NCBI GenBank assembly: GCA_946886995.1
Contig: CAMPJU010000036.1
Span: 1 to 9,657 of the forward strand
DNA: 9,657 nt
Source of the DNA: an uncultured Lysobacteraceae bacterium
Lineage (GTDB): Bacteria; Pseudomonadota; Gammaproteobacteria; Xanthomonadales; Xanthomonadaceae
Direction of reading: 5' to 3'
Made by a program: the position numbers and the translations under genes
Notes under the pieces: generated by a model
Told to the model about the DNA's origin: nothing
The model's input: only the letters and a program-made list of their open reading frames with translations
Database searches by the model: none
In this document: positions 3,477 to 9,657 of the stretch, one piece after another
How the letters are laid out: each line of letters begins with the position of its first letter
Position numbering within the stretch: the stretch's first letter is position 1

Positions 3477-3788
3477 TCAGCGGCCGTCGCCGTCCGCGTC
3501 ACCGGGCATGGCGTGCTCGAGGCGGTGCCAGCCGTCCCGGACGGCGTCCTTGGCCTCCGCCCAGCCCAGCCGGGAATTGGCCTTGGCGCGTTCCCAGCCG
3601 CGCTCCAGGTCGTTCTCGACCTCGTCGAAGTGGCGGCCGCGATACGTGGTGCTGTACTGGTCGTAGCCGTACTTGTAGGCCGGCTCGTAGTCGTTCCACG
3701 TGCGGCCCTGCTGGTAGTACGAAGCGTTCTCGTAGTTCTTGCGGAAGTGGTTGTCGTAGTCCTGCTGGGTCGACTGCGGGTTCGCCAT
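3477..3788 (-). CDS. Small tyrosine-rich conserved protein, possibly stress-related
   Basis: 103 residues, hydrophilic, acidic-aromatic, with no signal peptide or membrane segment. The layout is a Tyr/Asn/Gln-rich N-terminus (about 10-30), then DYEPAYKYGYDQY at 33-45, RGRHFDEVENDLERGW at 50-65 and WAEAKDAVRDGWHRLE at 76-91. This chain (D-Y-x-P-A-Y-x-Y-G, then D-x-V-E-x-D-L-x-x-x-W, then A-K-x-A-V-R-x-G-W) recurs, from memory, in unnamed bacterial proteins often associated with stress genes. No biochemical function is known to me. The ATG at 3788 has AGAGGA about 7 bases upstream. It lies downstream of the HPF-family gene on the same strand, 109 bases away, and has its own strong terminator. 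A stress role is inferred from its neighbour only. Confidence 0.8.
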   Translation of the reverse strand: MANPQSTQQDYDNHFRKNYENASYYQQGRTWNDYEPAYKYGYDQYSTTYRGRHFDEVENDLERGWERAKANSRLGWAEAKDAVRDGWHRLEHAMPGDADGDGR

Positions 3789-3897: not shown

Positions 3898-4209
3898 TCA
3901 GGACCCGAGTTTTCCCAGCGAACTGTCGAGCGCCCGCTGCAGCTTTTTCGCCGCGCCATTGATGGCCACTGCCAGCGCATCGGAGTCGTCCGAGGCGGTC
4001 ACCGGCGGGCGGCCCTCGAGACGCGCCTCCATCAGGCAGTGCTTGTCGCGCCCGCCGCCCTTCGCGGCGTTCTCGTCGCGCAGGTGGACTTCGACGCGGG
4101 TGACCTGTCCGGCGAAGCGGCCGAGGTGGTTCTCGACGGTGTCCTCGACGTGGCGGACCACGGACTCGTCGGACTGCAGGTTGTGGTCGGTGTTGATCAG
4201 GATCTTCAT
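3898..4209 (-). CDS. HPF/RaiA-family ribosome-associated protein
   Basis: A 103-residue protein with the beta-alpha-beta-beta-beta-alpha pattern of ribosomal S30AE domains. It starts with strand MKILINTD, then helix DESVVRHVEDTVENHLGRF at about 14-32, strand TRVEVHLRDEN at 37-47, strand HCLMEARLEG at 57-66 and final helix DALAVAINGAAKKLQRAL at 77-94. The D-A-x-x-A-I-x-x-A-x-x-K-L-x-R-x-L ending is typical of HPF and RaiA. The family binds the 30S decoding region and stops translation in stationary phase or stress. The short length matches short HPF rather than long HPF. It is probably an accessory paralogue, since the usual hpf lies near rpoN in gammaproteobacteria. The ATG at 4209 has AAGGA 7 bases upstream. 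The frame is open far upstream to 5301, but that part is antisense to the next gene. Confidence 0.87.
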   Translation of the reverse strand: MKILINTDHNLQSDESVVRHVEDTVENHLGRFAGQVTRVEVHLRDENAAKGGGRDKHCLMEARLEGRPPVTASDDSDALAVAINGAAKKLQRALDSSLGKLGS

Positions 4210-4329: not shown

Positions 4330-5565
4330 ATGGCCAGGGTGTTGACCGTGCTGTTCGCGGCGCTGCTGCTGGCGTCGGCGGCGGCGTCCGCGCAGGACGA
4401 TTTTTCCGCGCGACTCGACCGGGCCGACGCGCTGCGCAGCGCGGATCCGGAGCGCTCGGCGACGCTCCTGGCCACGCTGGAGGCGGACACCGCCGGTGCC
4501 ACGACGCTGCAGCGCCAGCGGATCGCCTACCTGCGCGCATACCATCTCGCGGTGTTCGGCAACCGCCCGGAAGAGGCGGCGGAACGCGCGCTCGTGCTGT
4601 TCGAGCAGGTTGGCGACATCAATCTGAAGTTCCGCGCCGGGTCGCTCGCGGCCAGCAGCTTCGCGATCACCCGTGATTTCCAGGACAGCCTGCAGATCCT
4701 CGAGCAGGTCCTGCCGATGCGTGATCGCGTCACGGACAAGCCGGTGCGACACGCCGGGACGTACGCGGCCGCCCTGCTGTACAGCGAGCTTGGCCAGTAC
4801 CGCCTGAGCCTTCGCTACGCCGACGAAGTGATTGCCGACGGTCCCGACCCCCGCACGCGCTGCCTCGCATCGCTCCCGCAACTGGAAGCGCGCTACCGGC
4901 TCGGCGTGCTGCCCGTGGACGACGGCCCGCTCGGCCGCGCGATCGACCAGTGCCTGGCGGTAGGGGAACGGATGCCGGCGAACTTCCTGCGGCTCATCCT
5001 CGCCAGGAAGCTGGCGGACGGAGGGCGCCCGGGCGACGCGCTGGAACTGCTTCGCGTGCACCTTCCGGAAATGGATGCCATCGGTTACCAGCGACTGACG
5101 GTGGATGCGCACGCCCTGGTCGCCACCCTGCTGCTCGAGCAGCGGGACCTCAACGGCGCCGAGGAGCATGCACGCAGGGCGCTGGATGCCGCGCGCAGTT
5201 TCGCCGGCGGGCTGCCGCTGGCCGAGGCGCACCGGGTGCTCTACGAAGTCGCGCAGCGGGAAGGGGACGCGGTCGCCGCCCTCGCGCACTACCGCCGGCA
5301 CATCGACGCGGACAATGCGAGCCTGGGTGACCTGGAGGAGCGCAACCTGGCTTACGCGCTCGTGCAGGACGAACAGACCGGGCGGGACCGGCAGATCGAC
5401 TTGCTGGTCCAGCAGAACCAGCTCCTCAGGCTCCGCCAGGAGATCAGCGACAAGGCCGCGAGGAGGGCGTGGGTCGTCATCGCGGCGCTCATCCTCCTGG
5501 TCGGTGTCACCGGTGCATGGACATGGCGGACCGCACGTCGCGCCAGGTCGACGACCGTCGATTGA
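4330..5565 (+). CDS. TPR-like membrane sensor without output domain (paralogue of the downstream GGDEF protein)
   Basis: 411 residues. A signal peptide covers about 1-21 (likely cut after ASA). A helical repeat region of TPR type runs about 25-330, followed by a coiled coil at 340-378 (LLVQQNQLLRLRQEISDK at 358-375) and one transmembrane helix at 381-399. The protein then ends twelve residues later after an Arg-rich stretch. It is collinear over its whole length with the N-terminal 405 residues of the protein at 7294-9090: AYLRA, K-x-R-A-x-x-L-A-x-x-S-x-A-I-T-R, LRYADE and LYE-x-A are in the same order. The GGDEF domain of that paralogue is absent. It is predicted periplasmic with a short cytoplasmic tail, perhaps sensing a ligand or pairing with the GGDEF paralogue. 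The start has GGGAGG only 3 bases upstream; a GTG at 4339 is an alternative. Confidence 0.87.
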   Translation: MARVLTVLFAALLLASAAASAQDDFSARLDRADALRSADPERSATLLATLEADTAGATTLQRQRIAYLRAYHLAVFGNRPEEAAERALVLFEQVGDINLKFRAGSLAASSFAITRDFQDSLQILEQVLPMRDRVTDKPVRHAGTYAAALLYSELGQYRLSLRYADEVIADGPDPRTRCLASLPQLEARYRLGVLPVDDGPLGRAIDQCLAVGERMPANFLRLILARKLADGGRPGDALELLRVHLPEMDAIGYQRLTVDAHALVATLLLEQRDLNGAEEHARRALDAARSFAGGLPLAEAHRVLYEVAQREGDAVAALAHYRRHIDADNASLGDLEERNLAYALVQDEQTGRDRQIDLLVQQNQLLRLRQEISDKAARRAWVVIAALILLVGVTGAWTWRTARRARSTTVD

Positions 5566-5568
5566 CCG

Positions 5569-6102
5569 TTGGACGGCTTCTCCACCGGGCGTTGCGACCT
5601 TCGGCTGCTGGCGCCGGGCGACGAACCGCTGTACGCCGCGCTGTACACCGACGCCCGGGTCATGGCATGGATCGCGCCGCCATGCGGCGCGTCGGAACTG
5701 CAGCGACGGTTCAGCACCGCGTGTCGGGAGAACGCCGTCCCCATGCCGCTACGACGTCATTGGGTCGTCCATGACCGAAGCGGTGGCGCCGTCGGGCTGC
5801 TGGCGCTCCTGCAGGACCAGGCGGGATCCGGCGATGCCGAAATCGGGGTGATGTTGCTGCCTGCTGCGCAGGGCCGCGGATTCGCGCGCGAGGTCGTCGG
5901 AGCACTCGTTGCACTCGTCTTTTCCGCATGCCCCGGGATCGACCGTGTGTGGGCACGGCACCGGGTGGACCACGCGGCGGCCGCGGCGTTGATGCGGGCC
6001 GTCGGGTTCCCGGTGGAATCCGCTTGCGGGAAGCGGGCGACCTGTTCGCGAACGCGCCCCTTGGACAGCCCGGTTTGCATGGCGCGGCCCGGCGGAAGCT
6101 AG
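5569..6102 (+). CDS. GNAT family N-acetyltransferase
   Basis: 177 residues. LRLLAPGDEPLYAALYTDA at 11-29 is the usual first strand and helix of GNAT enzymes of the RimJ/RimL-like type. EIGVMLLPAAQGRGFAREVV at 91-110 carries strand 4 and the acetyl-CoA pyrophosphate loop Q-x-x-G-x-A (Q101, G104, A106). HAAAAALMRAVGF at 135-147 is the late helix. It should transfer an acyl group from acyl-CoA to an amine; the substrate is unknown. The start is a TTG three bases after the TGA of the upstream gene and in the same frame, with a weak ribosome site, so coupled translation is likely. The last 30 residues are Cys/Arg-rich and unlike a normal GNAT final strand (see findings). It sits 41 bases before the borosin methyltransferase, so the precursor peptide is one possible substrate, by inference only. 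Confidence 0.8.
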   Translation: MDGFSTGRCDLRLLAPGDEPLYAALYTDARVMAWIAPPCGASELQRRFSTACRENAVPMPLRRHWVVHDRSGGAVGLLALLQDQAGSGDAEIGVMLLPAAQGRGFAREVVGALVALVFSACPGIDRVWARHRVDHAAAAALMRAVGFPVESACGKRATCSRTRPLDSPVCMARPGGS

Positions 6103-6108
6103 TAGATT
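6101..6108 (+). promoter_or_regulatory. AGTAGATT octamer, possible -10 for the borosin methyltransferase
   Basis: The same octamer forms the candidate -10 at 4296-4303. Here it overlaps the GNAT stop and lies 35 bases before the methyltransferase ATG. The -35 side is poor (TGGCGC at 17-base spacing), so an internal promoter is only possible. Confidence 0.3.
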
Positions 6109-6143
6109 CGCAGGCACTTGGGGCGCGCGGGGCGGGGAGAAAC

Positions 6144-7013
6144 ATGCCAGGAGCGGGGAATCTTGCCTGCGTCGGCCTGGGAATGATGCTGGGTGCCCAC
6201 CTCAGCCCTCGTTCGCGCAGTCATATCGAACACGCCGATGTCGTCTTCGCGCTGGTTTCCGATCCGCTCGTGGAACTCTGGCTGGGACAGCTCCGGGCGT
6301 GTGTGCGCAGCCTGCAGCCGTTCTACGGGTCCGGCGACCGCGACGGCAAGCCACGGACCGAAAGCTACCGTGAAATGGTCGAGGCGATGATGGCCGAGGT
6401 GCGCGCGGGGCGGCGCGTCTGCGCGGTGTTCTATGGCCATCCGGGCGTCTTCGCCATGGTTCCCCATCGGGCGATCAGCCAGGCGCGGTCGGAGGGTTTC
6501 CACGCCGTCATGGAGCCGGGCATTTCCGCCGAGGACTGTCTCTACGCCGACCTGGGCATCGACCCTGGCACGTTCGGTTGCCAGCATTTCGAGGCCAGCC
6601 AGTTCATGTTCTATCGCCGCCGGGTCGATCCGTCGGCGCTGCTGGTGTTGTGGCAGGTGGGCATCGCCGGCGACCGGTCGCTGAGCCGGTTCGCGACCGG
6701 CAGCGACCATCGTGGCCTGCTGGTCGACCTGCTGGCGGAGGACTACCCGCTCGACCACGAGGTCATCGCCTACGAGGCTGCGACGCTGCCCATCAGCGAG
6801 CCGCGGATGGAGCGCATGCCCCTGGCCGGGCTCGCGATCGCCGACCTGCGGCTGCAGACGACGCTGGTCGTGCCGCCGGCGCGCGCGATGGAGCGGAACG
6901 ACGCAATGCTCGCGCGGCTCGATGCGTTGGAAAGCCCGGTGCGTCGCCGGGCCGGAAATGGCATGTCACTGAAAGGGGGATCGATCCATGTCGCAAGTCC
7001 TGCAATTCCTTGA
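6144..7013 (+). CDS. sonM: Split-borosin peptide backbone alpha-N-methyltransferase (SonM-like)
   Basis: 289 residues, tetrapyrrole (corrin/porphyrin) methylase fold. It closely resembles SonM of Shewanella, as I recall that sequence: LACVGLGMMLGAHLSPRS at 7-24, HIEHADVVFALV at 27-38, FYGHPGVFAMV at 96-106, ME-PGISAEDCLYADLGID at 123-140, FEASQFMF at 149-156 and PLDHEVIAYEA at 202-212. Y61, R71, Y75 and Y97 match, in spacing to within one residue, the active-site Tyr/Arg set of SonM and OphMA. The family uses SAM to methylate backbone amides of a precursor core; the split type acts on a separate precursor, here encoded next. It lacks siroheme or cobalamin context, which argues against a pathway role in corrin synthesis. 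The ATG at 6144 follows GGGGAGA. The tail beyond about 262 is not recognisable and overlaps the precursor gene by 26 bases. Confidence 0.92.
   Translation: MPGAGNLACVGLGMMLGAHLSPRSRSHIEHADVVFALVSDPLVELWLGQLRACVRSLQPFYGSGDRDGKPRTESYREMVEAMMAEVRAGRRVCAVFYGHPGVFAMVPHRAISQARSEGFHAVMEPGISAEDCLYADLGIDPGTFGCQHFEASQFMFYRRRVDPSALLVLWQVGIAGDRSLSRFATGSDHRGLLVDLLAEDYPLDHEVIAYEAATLPISEPRMERMPLAGLAIADLRLQTTLVVPPARAMERNDAMLARLDALESPVRRRAGNGMSLKGGSIHVASPAIP
6972..6980 (+). promoter_or_regulatory. Strong ribosome binding site of the borosin precursor gene
   Basis: AAAGGGGGA ends 7 bases before the ATG at 6988 and lies inside the 3' coding end of the methyltransferase gene. It is the strongest purine-rich site in this gene run, consistent with a precursor made in excess over its enzyme, and it fixes the start of the precursor. 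Confidence 0.7.
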
Positions 7014-7263
7014 AAGCCTCGGCCGTGACGGCGCGGTCGCGGCACGCGCTGGCCAGGGCTACCTCGCCGCTGTCTCCAGCCTGGACATCGACGAGATGCA
7101 GCGCCAGGCATTGCTCGACCGCGACGCGGGTGCGCTCGCGGACCTGCTCGGCGCACGTCCGGTGATGTTGTGTTCGATCTTCCCGGCCGAGGATCCCCAG
7201 CGCGAAGACGAACAGTCGCCGGACCAGGATCCAGATGACACCCCGCAGGAAGAAGAGCGCTGA
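6988..7263 (+). CDS. sonA: Borosin precursor peptide, SonA-like, with acidic tail
   Basis: 91 residues. Residues 1-55 are helical and match the borosin-binding domain of SonA (related to the LigA subunit fold): FLESLGRDGAVAAR at 7-20, a helix-break at 30-34, then DEMQRQALLDRDAGALADLLG at 35-55, which parallels the SonA stretch with D-E-Q, M-x-G-D and K-L-x-x-L. A hydrophobic strand RPVMLCSIFP at 57-66 follows where SonA has its methylated core (Y-L-V-I-S), so V59-F65 is the likely site of backbone N-methylation. The tail from E68 to R91 is 12 Asp/Glu in 24 residues plus Pro and Gln, and looks disordered. That tail is unlike SonA as I recall it. No protease or macrocyclase gene is seen, so maturation is unknown. 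The role rests on its place beside the SonM-like gene and the domain match. Confidence 0.85.
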   Translation: MSQVLQFLESLGRDGAVAARAGQGYLAAVSSLDIDEMQRQALLDRDAGALADLLGARPVMLCSIFPAEDPQREDEQSPDQDPDDTPQEEER

Positions 7264-7293
7264 TCCGCGCAAGCGGGTGGCCCGGACCTGTCC

Positions 7294-9090
7294 ATGACCC
7301 GAGCCGCCCTCGCGCTGCTGTTGTCCTGCTGGCTGGCCGCCGCCCTGTCGGCCGCGCCGCCTGCCGCCGCGGCGCCGTCGGTCGACGCGCTGCTGGCGCA
7401 GGCGGAGGCCGTCCGCAGTTCCCGGCCGCGGGAGTTCAAGGCGTTGCTCGACCAGCTGGATGCGTCCGTCGGGAAGGCCACGCCACGGCAACGGGAGCAG
7501 TTGGCCTACCTGCGGGCTTTTGCCGCGGCACTGGAGGGACGGCATGAGGTCGCGATCGACTCGGCCGTCGCGCTGTCGCGACGGACCAGCGACGTCGCGA
7601 TGAAGTACCGGGCCGCGACGCTCGCGGTCAACAGCTATGCGATCACGCGGCAGTTCGCGGAAGGGCTGCGGTTGCTCGAGGAGACGTTGCCACTCGCCGC
7701 GGACGTCGAGGACGCCCACGTGCGCATCCACGGGCAGATGGTCGCCGCGCAGATGTACAACCAGATGGGACAATTCGAGATCGGCCTGCGGTACGCCGAC
7801 GAGATCCTGGCGGGAGACATCCCGCCACGCACGGCCTGCTTCGCGGGGCAGCACCGCCTCGAAGCCCTCCAGAACCTCGGGCGAACGCCCCCGGAACCGG
7901 ACGTGGTCGCACTGGTCGGGCTGTGCGACGGGCTCGGGGAGCAGTTGGTCGCGAACCTGGTGCGGCAATCGCTTGCGCGGCAGTACGCGGAAGAAGGACG
8001 CCCGAAGCCGGGCATCGACCTCCTCGAATCGCACCTGGACGAGGTGCGCGCGCTCGGTTACCCCGCCATCATCATCGACTTCCACGCGCTGCTTGCGGAG
8101 TTGCTGCTTCGCGACGGGCAGGTGGAGGCGGCCGTCGCGCATGCCGAGGCAGCCATCGACCAGGAGCCCGGCGCGGCGCTGTCGAGGTCCCTGGTGACTG
8201 CATACAAGGCGTTGTACGAAATCGCGGAGGACCGGGGGGACCCGGTCCGGTCGCTCGAGTACTACCGGATGTACGCGGAGTCGCGCGAGGCCTACCTGGC
8301 GGACGTCAAGGTCCGCGACCTGGCCTACCAGGTCGTGCGCCACGAAGCCGAGCAGCAGAACCAGAAGATCGCCCTGTTGAACCAGCAGAACGAGGTGCTC
8401 AGGCTCCAGCAGCAGGTCGCCACCCAGGCCGCCCAGAATACGCGGCTGCTGATCGCGCTGCTCCTGCTGCTCCTTGCGTCCATCGGCTACTGGGCCTGGC
8501 GCGTCACGCGCCGCCATCATTCGCTGCGGCTGCTCGCCGAGGTCGACTCGCTGACCGGCGTGTCGAACCGGCGCCACTTCCTCCTGCAGGCCGGGCAATG
8601 CCTGGAGCAGGCCGCGCGGAACGGCGAGACGGTATCGCTGGTGATGCTGGACCTGGACCACTTCAAGCAGATCAACGACACGTACGGCCACGTGACCGGC
8701 GACTGGGTGCTGGAACGCGTGGCCGCGGAGTGCCGGGCGCATTGCAGGCGGGTCGACCTCTTCGGCCGGCTGGGTGGCGAGGAGTTCGCGATCCTGCTGC
8801 CCGGTTGCGACGTGCAGGCCGCGGCGCGGGTCGCAGAGCAGTGCCGTGCGCGGATCGCGGGAATGGACACGAAGGGCGCAGGCCATGCGATCCGGCTGGC
8901 GGCCAGCTTCGGCGTGACCGATTCGACCTGGTCCGGCCACGTGCTGAGCCGGCTGCTCTCGCACGCCGACCAGGCGCTGTACCGCGCGAAGCACGGCGGG
9001 CGGAACCTGGTGTGCGTCTATGCGGGCGAGCCGGTGCGGACACGCCCGCCGGTGACGCCGCCCGCCGGCCTCGCATCGCAGACGTCCTGA
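7294..9090 (+). CDS. TPR-membrane diguanylate cyclase (GGEEF)
   Basis: 598 residues. A signal peptide covers about 1-27. TPR-like helices fill about 30-335, a coiled coil lies at 340-384 (QKIALLNQQNEVLRLQQQV at 357-375), and one transmembrane helix at 385-403. The cytoplasmic GGDEF domain follows: VDSLTGVSNRRHFL at 417-430, DLDHFKQIND at 453-462, and GGEEF at 494-498. The I-site RRVD at 485-488 sits five residues before GGEEF. All catalytic features are present, so it should make cyclic di-GMP in answer to a periplasmic signal read by the TPR region. The sensor half is paralogous to the protein at 4330-5565. It starts 30 bases after the precursor stop with a weak ribosome site and ends 6 bases before the transporter, so it is probably co-transcribed with the borosin pair. 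Confidence 0.93.
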   Translation: MTRAALALLLSCWLAAALSAAPPAAAAPSVDALLAQAEAVRSSRPREFKALLDQLDASVGKATPRQREQLAYLRAFAAALEGRHEVAIDSAVALSRRTSDVAMKYRAATLAVNSYAITRQFAEGLRLLEETLPLAADVEDAHVRIHGQMVAAQMYNQMGQFEIGLRYADEILAGDIPPRTACFAGQHRLEALQNLGRTPPEPDVVALVGLCDGLGEQLVANLVRQSLARQYAEEGRPKPGIDLLESHLDEVRALGYPAIIIDFHALLAELLLRDGQVEAAVAHAEAAIDQEPGAALSRSLVTAYKALYEIAEDRGDPVRSLEYYRMYAESREAYLADVKVRDLAYQVVRHEAEQQNQKIALLNQQNEVLRLQQQVATQAAQNTRLLIALLLLLLASIGYWAWRVTRRHHSLRLLAEVDSLTGVSNRRHFLLQAGQCLEQAARNGETVSLVMLDLDHFKQINDTYGHVTGDWVLERVAAECRAHCRRVDLFGRLGGEEFAILLPGCDVQAAARVAEQCRARIAGMDTKGAGHAIRLAASFGVTDSTWSGHVLSRLLSHADQALYRAKHGGRNLVCVYAGEPVRTRPPVTPPAGLASQTS

Positions 9091-9096
9091 CCCGGG

Positions 9097-9657
9097 ATGG
9101 TCGTCGCGCCCGCCAGGAACTCGCCCGCACGCGTGCTGTTCGCCAGCATGATCGGGACCACGATCGAGTTCTTCGACTTCTACATCTACGCGACCGCCGC
9201 AGTGCTGGTCTTCCCCCGGCTGTTCTTCCCGGCCGGCGACCCGACCGCGGCGACGCTGCAGTCGCTGGCCACCTTCGCGCTGGCGTTCTTCGCCCGGCCC
9301 GTGGGCTCCGCCGTATTCGGGCACTTCGGCGACCGGGTCGGGCGGAAGGCGACGCTGGTGGCGGCGCTGCTGACGATGGGCGTGTCGACCGTCGCGATCG
9401 GCCTGCTGCCGACGCATGCGCAGGTCGGCGTGCTGGCGCCGGCCCTGCTGGCGCTCTGCCGGTTCGGCCAGGGACTCGGGCTGGGCGGCGAGTGGGGCGG
9501 GGCGGTGCTGCTGGCCACGGAGAACGCACCGCCCGGGAAACACGCGTGGTACGGCATGTTCCCGCAGCTGGGCGCGCCCGTCGGCTTCCTCCTCGCCACC
9601 GGGGCGTTCATCGTGCTGGATGTAGCGCTCGACGACTCGGCGTTCTTCGCCTGGGGC
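9097..9657 (+). CDS. MFS transporter, metabolite:H+ symporter (MHS) type, 5' part
   Basis: The first 187 residues are present; the gene continues past the window. IEFFDFYIYATAAVLVFP at 23-40 is the first membrane helix typical of the MHS family (ProP, ShiA, KgtP-like). GHFGDRVGRK at 75-84 is the loop 2-3 signature of MFS proteins. RFGQGLGLGGEWGGAVLL at 122-139 covers helix 4, and WYGMFPQLGAPVGFLLATG at 151-169 covers helix 5. MHS members import small metabolites such as proline, betaine, citrate or shikimate with protons; the substrate cannot be told here. The ATG is 6 bases after the cyclase stop with only a GGG upstream, so translation may be coupled. Export of a borosin product by this transporter is possible but would be unusual for the family, which imports. 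Confidence 0.9.
   Translation, partial: MVVAPARNSPARVLFASMIGTTIEFFDFYIYATAAVLVFPRLFFPAGDPTAATLQSLATFALAFFARPVGSAVFGHFGDRVGRKATLVAALLTMGVSTVAIGLLPTHAQVGVLAPALLALCRFGQGLGLGGEWGGAVLLATENAPPGKHAWYGMFPQLGAPVGFLLATGAFIVLDVALDDSAFFAWG

Follow-up and report, generated by a model that had tools for sequence, protein, structure and literature searches.

Among the borosins, a small family of ribosomally synthesized and post-translationally modified peptides (RiPPs), two kinds of described system lie closest to the locus reported here: the type IV split borosin SonM/SonA of Shewanella oneidensis, in which methyltransferase and precursor are separate proteins (PDB 7LTC, 7LTE; described in the part of PMC8429565 on which we draw here and below), and the fused fungal borosins OphMA and dbOphMA. 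The locus lies in a 9,657-nucleotide (nt) stretch of DNA from an uncultured Lysobacteraceae bacterium (contig CAMPJU010000036.1; the whole stretch is hereafter the window), where a compact plus-strand cassette of five genes encodes a TPR membrane protein, a GNAT acetyltransferase, a methyltransferase, a 91-residue protein, and a protein combining TPR, transmembrane (TM) and GGDEF segments (Table 1). Judged by its sequence, it is a borosin of a known kind, the type IV split: as in SonM/SonA, enzyme and precursor are separate, the catalytic residues are the same, and so is the leader fold, which for the window is predicted. It differs in that the window enzyme falls in another clade of the tree, a GNAT gene is added, and the core contains Cys62 and Pro66 and is followed by a long acidic tail, where SonA has a short core. 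The fungal enzymes are homologous too (E about 1e-45) and the window leader resembles their clasp region, but the window precursor is a separate gene. In the part of the borosin literature covered, we met no variant like this GNAT-bearing clade, with its acidic tail and a Cys in the core, and no biological role is given for bacterial borosins.

The initial annotation of this DNA had proposed the two central genes, which we found at 6144–7013 and 6988–7263 with an overlap of 26 nt, and a Xanthomonadaceae-like origin, which agrees with the nearest relatives (Lysobacter). The 6144–7013 protein contains a TP_methylase domain (Pfam PF00590, E 3.6e-20), and its nearest solved structure in a PDB sequence search is SonM (7ltc_A, E 8.9e-84, residues 5–260), followed by MroMA, OphMA and dbOphMA (E 5e-46 to 1e-44). 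The contrary outcome set beforehand for the search against SonM and OphMA was a list led by siroheme or cobalamin methylases without borosin members; the search returned borosin enzymes for 25 of the 26 PDB sequences matched, the remaining one being a precorrin-2 methylase (E 0.003). The Tyr/Arg set of borosin enzymes predicted at the outset is present (Y61, R71, Y75, Y97): SonM residues Y58, R67, Y71, Y93, F99, E146 and W166 correspond to Y61, R71, Y75, Y97, F103, E150 and W170 of the window enzyme, and all seven are unchanged throughout the alignment (117 of 117 sequences, counting SonM and the window enzyme). An eighth residue tested, SonM Q178, is R182 in the window and variable across the family. 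Mutation of Y58, R67, Y71 and, slightly, Y93 reduces SonM activity; the double mutant at Y58 and Y71 was too weak for any activity to be measured, and R67A was inactive (PMC8429565). The window enzyme has no fused clasp or core, its 289 residues ending about 29 residues past the SonM-like part. A siroheme or cobalamin type methylase with the small gene as a chance neighbor would share the PF00590 fold family and the weak matches to the YabN, CobJ and CobI models of NCBIfam, but these lie far under the curated cut-offs, SonM is about 80 orders of magnitude closer in E-value than the sole tetrapyrrole methylase matched, the borosin active-site residues are invariant, and the precursor is conserved alongside the enzyme; we therefore reject this identity, which is hardly conceivable. 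The 6144–7013 protein is a SonM relative and very probably a split-borosin enzyme with the 6988–7263 protein as its precursor, and backbone N-methylation of the precursor by this enzyme is highly likely.

A profile built from 18 precursor relatives excluding SonA has SonA as its top match (E 1.2e-4), and the structure model of the window precursor, a five-helix leader (residues 3–54) followed by disorder, resembles SonA and the OphA clasp in structure comparison, which bears out the borosin-binding domain that had been claimed for it. The domain itself has no match in Pfam or NCBIfam, and a single-sequence PDB search with the precursor found designed proteins (TIM barrels) only. A precursor hidden Markov model (HMM) matches in 90 loci besides the window, a count that includes repeats of one genome and one plainly false match (L008, minus strand, E 8e-3); in a reversed-frame control with the rebuilt model (cut 1e-4), the best of 18,190 frames scored E 4.8. 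Because the precursor is conserved across loci, a chance origin is excluded. Seven loci (L002, L003, L041, L065, L067, L070, L078) carry two or three tandem precursors with differing cores beside one methyltransferase. Among 69 precursor relatives, five match IniB_NTERM (best E 7.9e-7) and five match Os1348 NHLP (best E 5.2e-6), and one 95-residue precursor-like protein (P0011; 72% identity over 47% of the query) has sigma-70 domains in its Pfam list and is possibly chimeric or from a misread contig.

SonA has a linker at residues 54–61 and a core at 62–71 that is methylated at 63 and 65 (PMC8429565). For the window, a hydrophobic core segment V59–F65 had been proposed, with the methylated residues within it. 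The segment is real, but by comparison with the SonA boundaries V59–L61 is more likely linker, and the motif shared with relatives in an alignment of 69 precursors is phi-C62-x-phi-phi-P66-A-[ED], at about residues 60–69. Ungapped SonA numbering from the shared G55 narrows the predicted N-methyl sites to positions 63 and 65 inside C62–F65, most likely S63 and F65, in a register that may be off by one or two positions; the alignment does not fix these sites, because MAFFT places gaps here in the SonA-like rows. The numbering against SonA is consistent with a precursor strand that would reach the SAM pocket in the complex. P66 has no amide hydrogen. Relatives with this core also have an acidic tail, for which no structure is predicted in the window (predicted local distance difference test, pLDDT, about 56–62 from residue 71).

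The neighboring genes are the most telling part of the locus. A first set of 53 loci was retrieved with only the methyltransferase as query; a TPR gene lies downstream on the same strand in 53 of 53, and a GGDEF domain is in frame with it in 52, the exception (L034) being cut by the contig end; in the best 30 loci of a second set, on stretches too short for GGDEF to show, the TPR gene is present in 30 of 30. Ten chosen SonM-like loci have precursor, TPR and GGDEF in 10/10 each, the last count including one locus with GGDEF in another frame (L086) and one without the GG[DE]EF motif (L090). Since L085, L087 and L086 are nearest to SonM in the tree, and L085, almost identical to SonM, has the TPR-GGDEF gene next to the precursor, this gene is very probably part of the SonM/SonA locus too. 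In L086 (6348–8070) the TPR and GGDEF parts stand in separate frames, a broken or misassembled receptor gene. Ten further loci were selected because their open frames are long or their identity is low, and in nine of them (L094–L101, L103) the precursor is followed by a single TPR-GGDEF-methyltransferase protein of about 850 amino acids (aa), two of these fusions being confirmed by Pfam; their precursor cores are of another type, mostly ATNHxIxxY-like. In the tenth (L102) we found neither precursor nor TPR gene.

The association also holds at the level of whole genomes. Across the 198 genomes in the family of a Lysobacter species (G002), the methyltransferase occurs in 76, a match including the TPR part in 66 and both in 63, so that 63 of the 76 genomes with the enzyme have a TPR-part match, as against 3 of the 122 without it (at most six candidates per genome were scored, and misses are possible). 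In the same genomes, 74 of 89 TPR copies lie within 5 kb of the methyltransferase. Sixteen methyltransferase copies lack an adjacent TPR match at threshold; eight of these are divergent TPR-GGDEF-methyltransferase fusions, G136 has a TPR gene, a second copy in G066 near the contig start has GGDEF before the methyltransferase, and inspection of 10–12 kb found no TPR gene beside the enzyme in G060, G039 and G148 (G100, G181 and G032 were left out of this inspection). In a Shewanella species' family, the methyltransferase is present in 119 of 146 genomes, and the association with TPR spans Lysobacter to Shewanella, Alteromonas and Marinicella. An HMM-found precursor lies within 500 nt upstream of 114 of 146 TPR genes (repeats of one genome included), and tandem precursor–receptor pairs occur in L048/L127 and L123.

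The GNAT gene is a recurrent, clade-specific addition to the cassette. It is found on the same strand near the methyltransferase in 37 of 53 loci, being absent in 16, and in 29 of 30 loci of the second set, counts of a common domain that come without a chance expectation; in one Alteromonas locus (L040, 5662–7026), methyltransferase and GNAT share a single 455-aa frame. The window GNAT weakly resembles spermidine acetyltransferase (E 6e-6). The initial annotation had described the neighbors of this locus as different from those of known borosins, which holds for GNAT, a real difference with 0 of 10 SonM-like loci, and fails for the TPR-GGDEF gene, present in all ten. Operon inheritance alone could keep such a gene order, with TPR-GGDEF and GNAT serving unrelated envelope physiology, and order may well persist among related genomes while GNAT is missing near the enzyme in the 16 loci above and in all SonM-like ones; yet the genome co-occurrence (63/76 vs 3/122), the taxonomic span and the fusions speak against this account, which we consider unlikely.

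That the peptide gene travels with the gene for a membrane protein making a second messenger suggests signaling as the most likely purpose of the modified peptide. The 7294–9090 protein consists of a signal-like helix (residues 2–19), TPR helices (30–313), a membrane helix (about 386–404) and a GGEEF diguanylate cyclase (415–571; Pfam GGDEF E 1.3e-42), with a model pLDDT of 92.8. The TPR domain would lie in the periplasm, given the signal-like start and the position of the membrane helix; two of its Cys are invariant in 59 of 59, from which we infer a disulfide, as expected outside the cytoplasm. Among 50 matches listed by Foldseek for the whole model, most are diguanylate cyclase or GGDEF entries; in a second structure search the fold of the TPR domain is similar to that of Rap pheromone receptors, with a TPR superhelix of the Rap type present and sequence identity of 6–13% in the aligned rows. 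RRNPP receptors are cytoplasmic and carry a helix-turn-helix (HTH) or a Rap helical effector domain. The window protein has a signal-like start, a membrane helix and GGDEF instead; compared with the Rap proteins of Bacillota and phages, the proposed receptor is periplasmic and joined to a diguanylate cyclase, and its peptide is proposed to be N-methylated.

We propose that the five-helix leader of the precursor docks onto the methyltransferase, which would act in trans, with S-adenosylmethionine as methyl donor, on backbone amides of the hydrophobic core, most likely those of 63 and 65; through the 26-nt overlap, enzyme and substrate are probably translated in a coupled manner. A protease would then free the core from its leader for export, and the TPR domain that the next gene encodes, lying in the periplasm, would bind it and control the cytoplasmic cyclase. 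The pairing of core and TPR domain as ligand and receptor is a tentative assignment drawn from sequence, and equally tentative is the broader proposal that the N-methylated core is an exported pheromone read by a Rap-like periplasmic TPR domain, which would make the split borosins of Gammaproteobacteria a form of Gram-negative signaling directly into cyclic di-GMP (c-di-GMP), in which each clade has its own cores, peptide and receptor are sometimes duplicated as a pair, and some receptors are orphans or decoys. If true, this would be a modified-peptide signaling route in Gram-negative bacteria that feeds c-di-GMP. Alternatively, the methylated precursor might remain uncleaved and act intracellularly, possibly on the cyclase, without release or export, in keeping with a cassette in which protease and exporter are not recognized and with the acidic tail that recurs in loci with this core; we think this quite improbable, since the signal-like start and the position of the membrane helix indicate a periplasmic TPR domain, which the invariant Cys pair also fits.

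We then compared the co-variation of the parts by partial correlations of distances over 62 loci with 1000 permutations, taking residues 57–69 as the core. Fused loci, loci without an HMM-found precursor beside the TPR gene, and repeats (L016, L038, L043, L080, L127) were left out; L117 was placed in the Rhodanobacter group by genome despite the Cys in its core, and a few rows of the core alignment are visibly misaligned (L028, L117, L122). Given methyltransferase and GGDEF, the core follows the TPR domain (r 0.29, 0/1000 permutations), with r 0.11 for core and methyltransferase (22/1000) and −0.04 for core and GGDEF (736/1000), and the leader follows the methyltransferase (r 0.31, 0/1000), with −0.01 for GGDEF (620/1000). 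After removal of SonA-like and Rhodanobacter-type loci, the remaining 44 give 0.24 (0) for core and TPR, 0.06 (209) for core and methyltransferase, 0.43 (0) for leader and methyltransferase and 0.19 (2) for leader and TPR; substitution-matrix distances agree. The core–TPR correlations are modest (0.24–0.35), and the permutations treat loci as exchangeable, which overstates significance. In TPR proteins, helices A line the groove. With helices A and B assigned from the TPR consensus ahead of the test, the core signal is 0.33 in helices A vs 0.19 in helices B, a difference reached by 73 of 3432 relabelings, or 32 of 3432 in the restricted set, and the leader has no such bias (1586 and 903 of 3432); for this analysis alone L128, a repeat of L035, was also removed (61 and 43 loci). 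Core thus co-varies modestly with TPR and leader with methyltransferase, the pattern that would be expected if the TPR groove reads the core.

These data also bear on a second role for the TPR-GGDEF protein, as a regulator that senses another envelope cue and switches borosin synthesis through c-di-GMP; the peptide might then be an antibiotic, bind metal or have some other use. The nine TPR-GGDEF-methyltransferase fusions would suit such control exerted locally on the enzyme, and the account is also favored by the GG[DE]EF motif, intact in 9 of 9 fused proteins and in 99 of 103 split ones (counting repeats of one genome), and by the lack of a recognized exporter in the window, but the TPR domain is tracked by the core more than by the enzyme, with the excess in the groove-lining helices A; we hold this account possible, if somewhat doubtful. 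Copies of TPR-GGDEF away from the methyltransferase number 15, and of the 14 inspected, three have their own precursor (L109, L110, L130) and no methyltransferase on the examined stretch, their genomes having one elsewhere, which speaks against the regulator account; a peptide–receptor unit can thus exist without an adjoining enzyme, although most such copies are single. The lone copies would be orphan receptors if the peptide is a signal; on the regulator account they are evidence for regulation and against a peptide signal.

Several results weigh against the peptide as the ligand of a periplasmic receptor or against parts of the borosin assignment beneath it. No precursor was found with 11 of the 14 distant copies; for 32 of the 146 TPR genes the HMM finds no precursor in the 500 nt upstream, nine of these having one by eye; and L034/L035 have a TPR gene beside the methyltransferase without a precursor. 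Neither a protease nor an exporter gene was recognized in the window, although the domain proposed as receptor would face the periplasm. A correlation with TPR is seen for the leader as well (r 0.20, 0/1000, 62 loci), and Mantel-type tests leave shared ancestry partly uncontrolled. TPR solenoids can be alike without common ligands, and APPBP2, a degron binder, scores level with Rap against the window TPR domain. Foldseek E-values of the precursor model are non-significant (best 2.3), and SonM-type cores have neither the Cys nor the PAED motif.

A link between GGDEF and borosins is already hinted at in print: the Figure 1 legend of PMC11395268, within the part of that paper covered, names a GGDEF-containing part in its account of borosin architectures, and this was the only paper joining borosin and GGDEF in open-licence PubMed Central. 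The same collection held nothing joining borosin with Lysobacter, no title on peptide signaling via TPR-GGDEF under borosin and quorum sensing, only actinomycete reviews for RiPP precursor peptide and diguanylate cyclase, and nothing on N-methylated peptide with c-di-GMP and TPR or on a periplasmic TPR-GGDEF peptide pheromone. The conserved TPR-GGDEF gene, the methyltransferase fusions and the co-variation of core and TPR sharpen the question of role to whether the core binds the TPR domain and alters c-di-GMP.

Table 1. Cassette features and their positions in the window
Feature	Positions	Strand	Basis
Truncated TPR-TM paralog of the proposed receptor, 411 aa, no GGDEF	4330..5565	+	TPR profile match 4399–5463; TPR_12 under Pfam cut-off; hydrophobic ends; Cys178/Cys208
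GNAT acetyltransferase (PF13302)	5569..6102	+	PF13302 E 1.7e-19
Probable split-borosin alpha-N-methyltransferase, SonM homolog, 289 aa	6144..7013	+	SonM chain E 8.9e-84; catalytic residues kept
Putative ribosome-binding-like site AAAGGGGG of the precursor gene, within the methyltransferase gene	6972..6979	+	Sequence; inference
Probable borosin precursor, SonA homolog, 91 aa	6988..7263	+	Family profile finds SonA E 1.2e-4; same methyltransferase/TPR-gene slot in relatives
Leader, predicted borosin-binding domain, residues 1–54, five helices	6988..7149	+	Predicted fold
Predicted core C62-S63-I64-F65-P66	7171..7185	+	Motif in 69 aligned precursors; SonA core comparison (PMC8429565, in part)
Acidic C-terminal tail, residues 67–91	7186..7260	+	Relatives with this core also acidic-tailed; pLDDT about 56–62 from residue 71
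TPR-TM-GGDEF protein, proposed receptor	7294..9090	+	GGDEF E 1.3e-42; hydrophobic stretches; model pLDDT 92.8; Rap-like TPR

The first gene of the cassette encodes a protein with a signal-peptide-like start, a TPR array, a C-terminal membrane helix and the same two Cys as the proposed receptor, and lies directly upstream of the GNAT gene; it probably belongs to the cassette. Among TPR matches uncut by a stretch end it is the sole one without a nearby GGDEF, and it could be a decoy or co-receptor. An Rfam scan gave nothing at gathering thresholds, where a c-di-GMP riboswitch would have been informative, and a sigma-70 promoter scan of 5300–9657 gave none (chance expectation 0.3). The minus strand of the window encodes a Methyltransf_16 protein (27–695), a small Tyr/Asn-rich protein with no Pfam match (3477–3788), a Ribosomal_S30AE-like protein (3898–4209) and a separate, second GGDEF protein with a hydrophobic N-terminal half (1673–2728), a homolog of which lies near the cassette in relatives, for example L001, L006 and L029.
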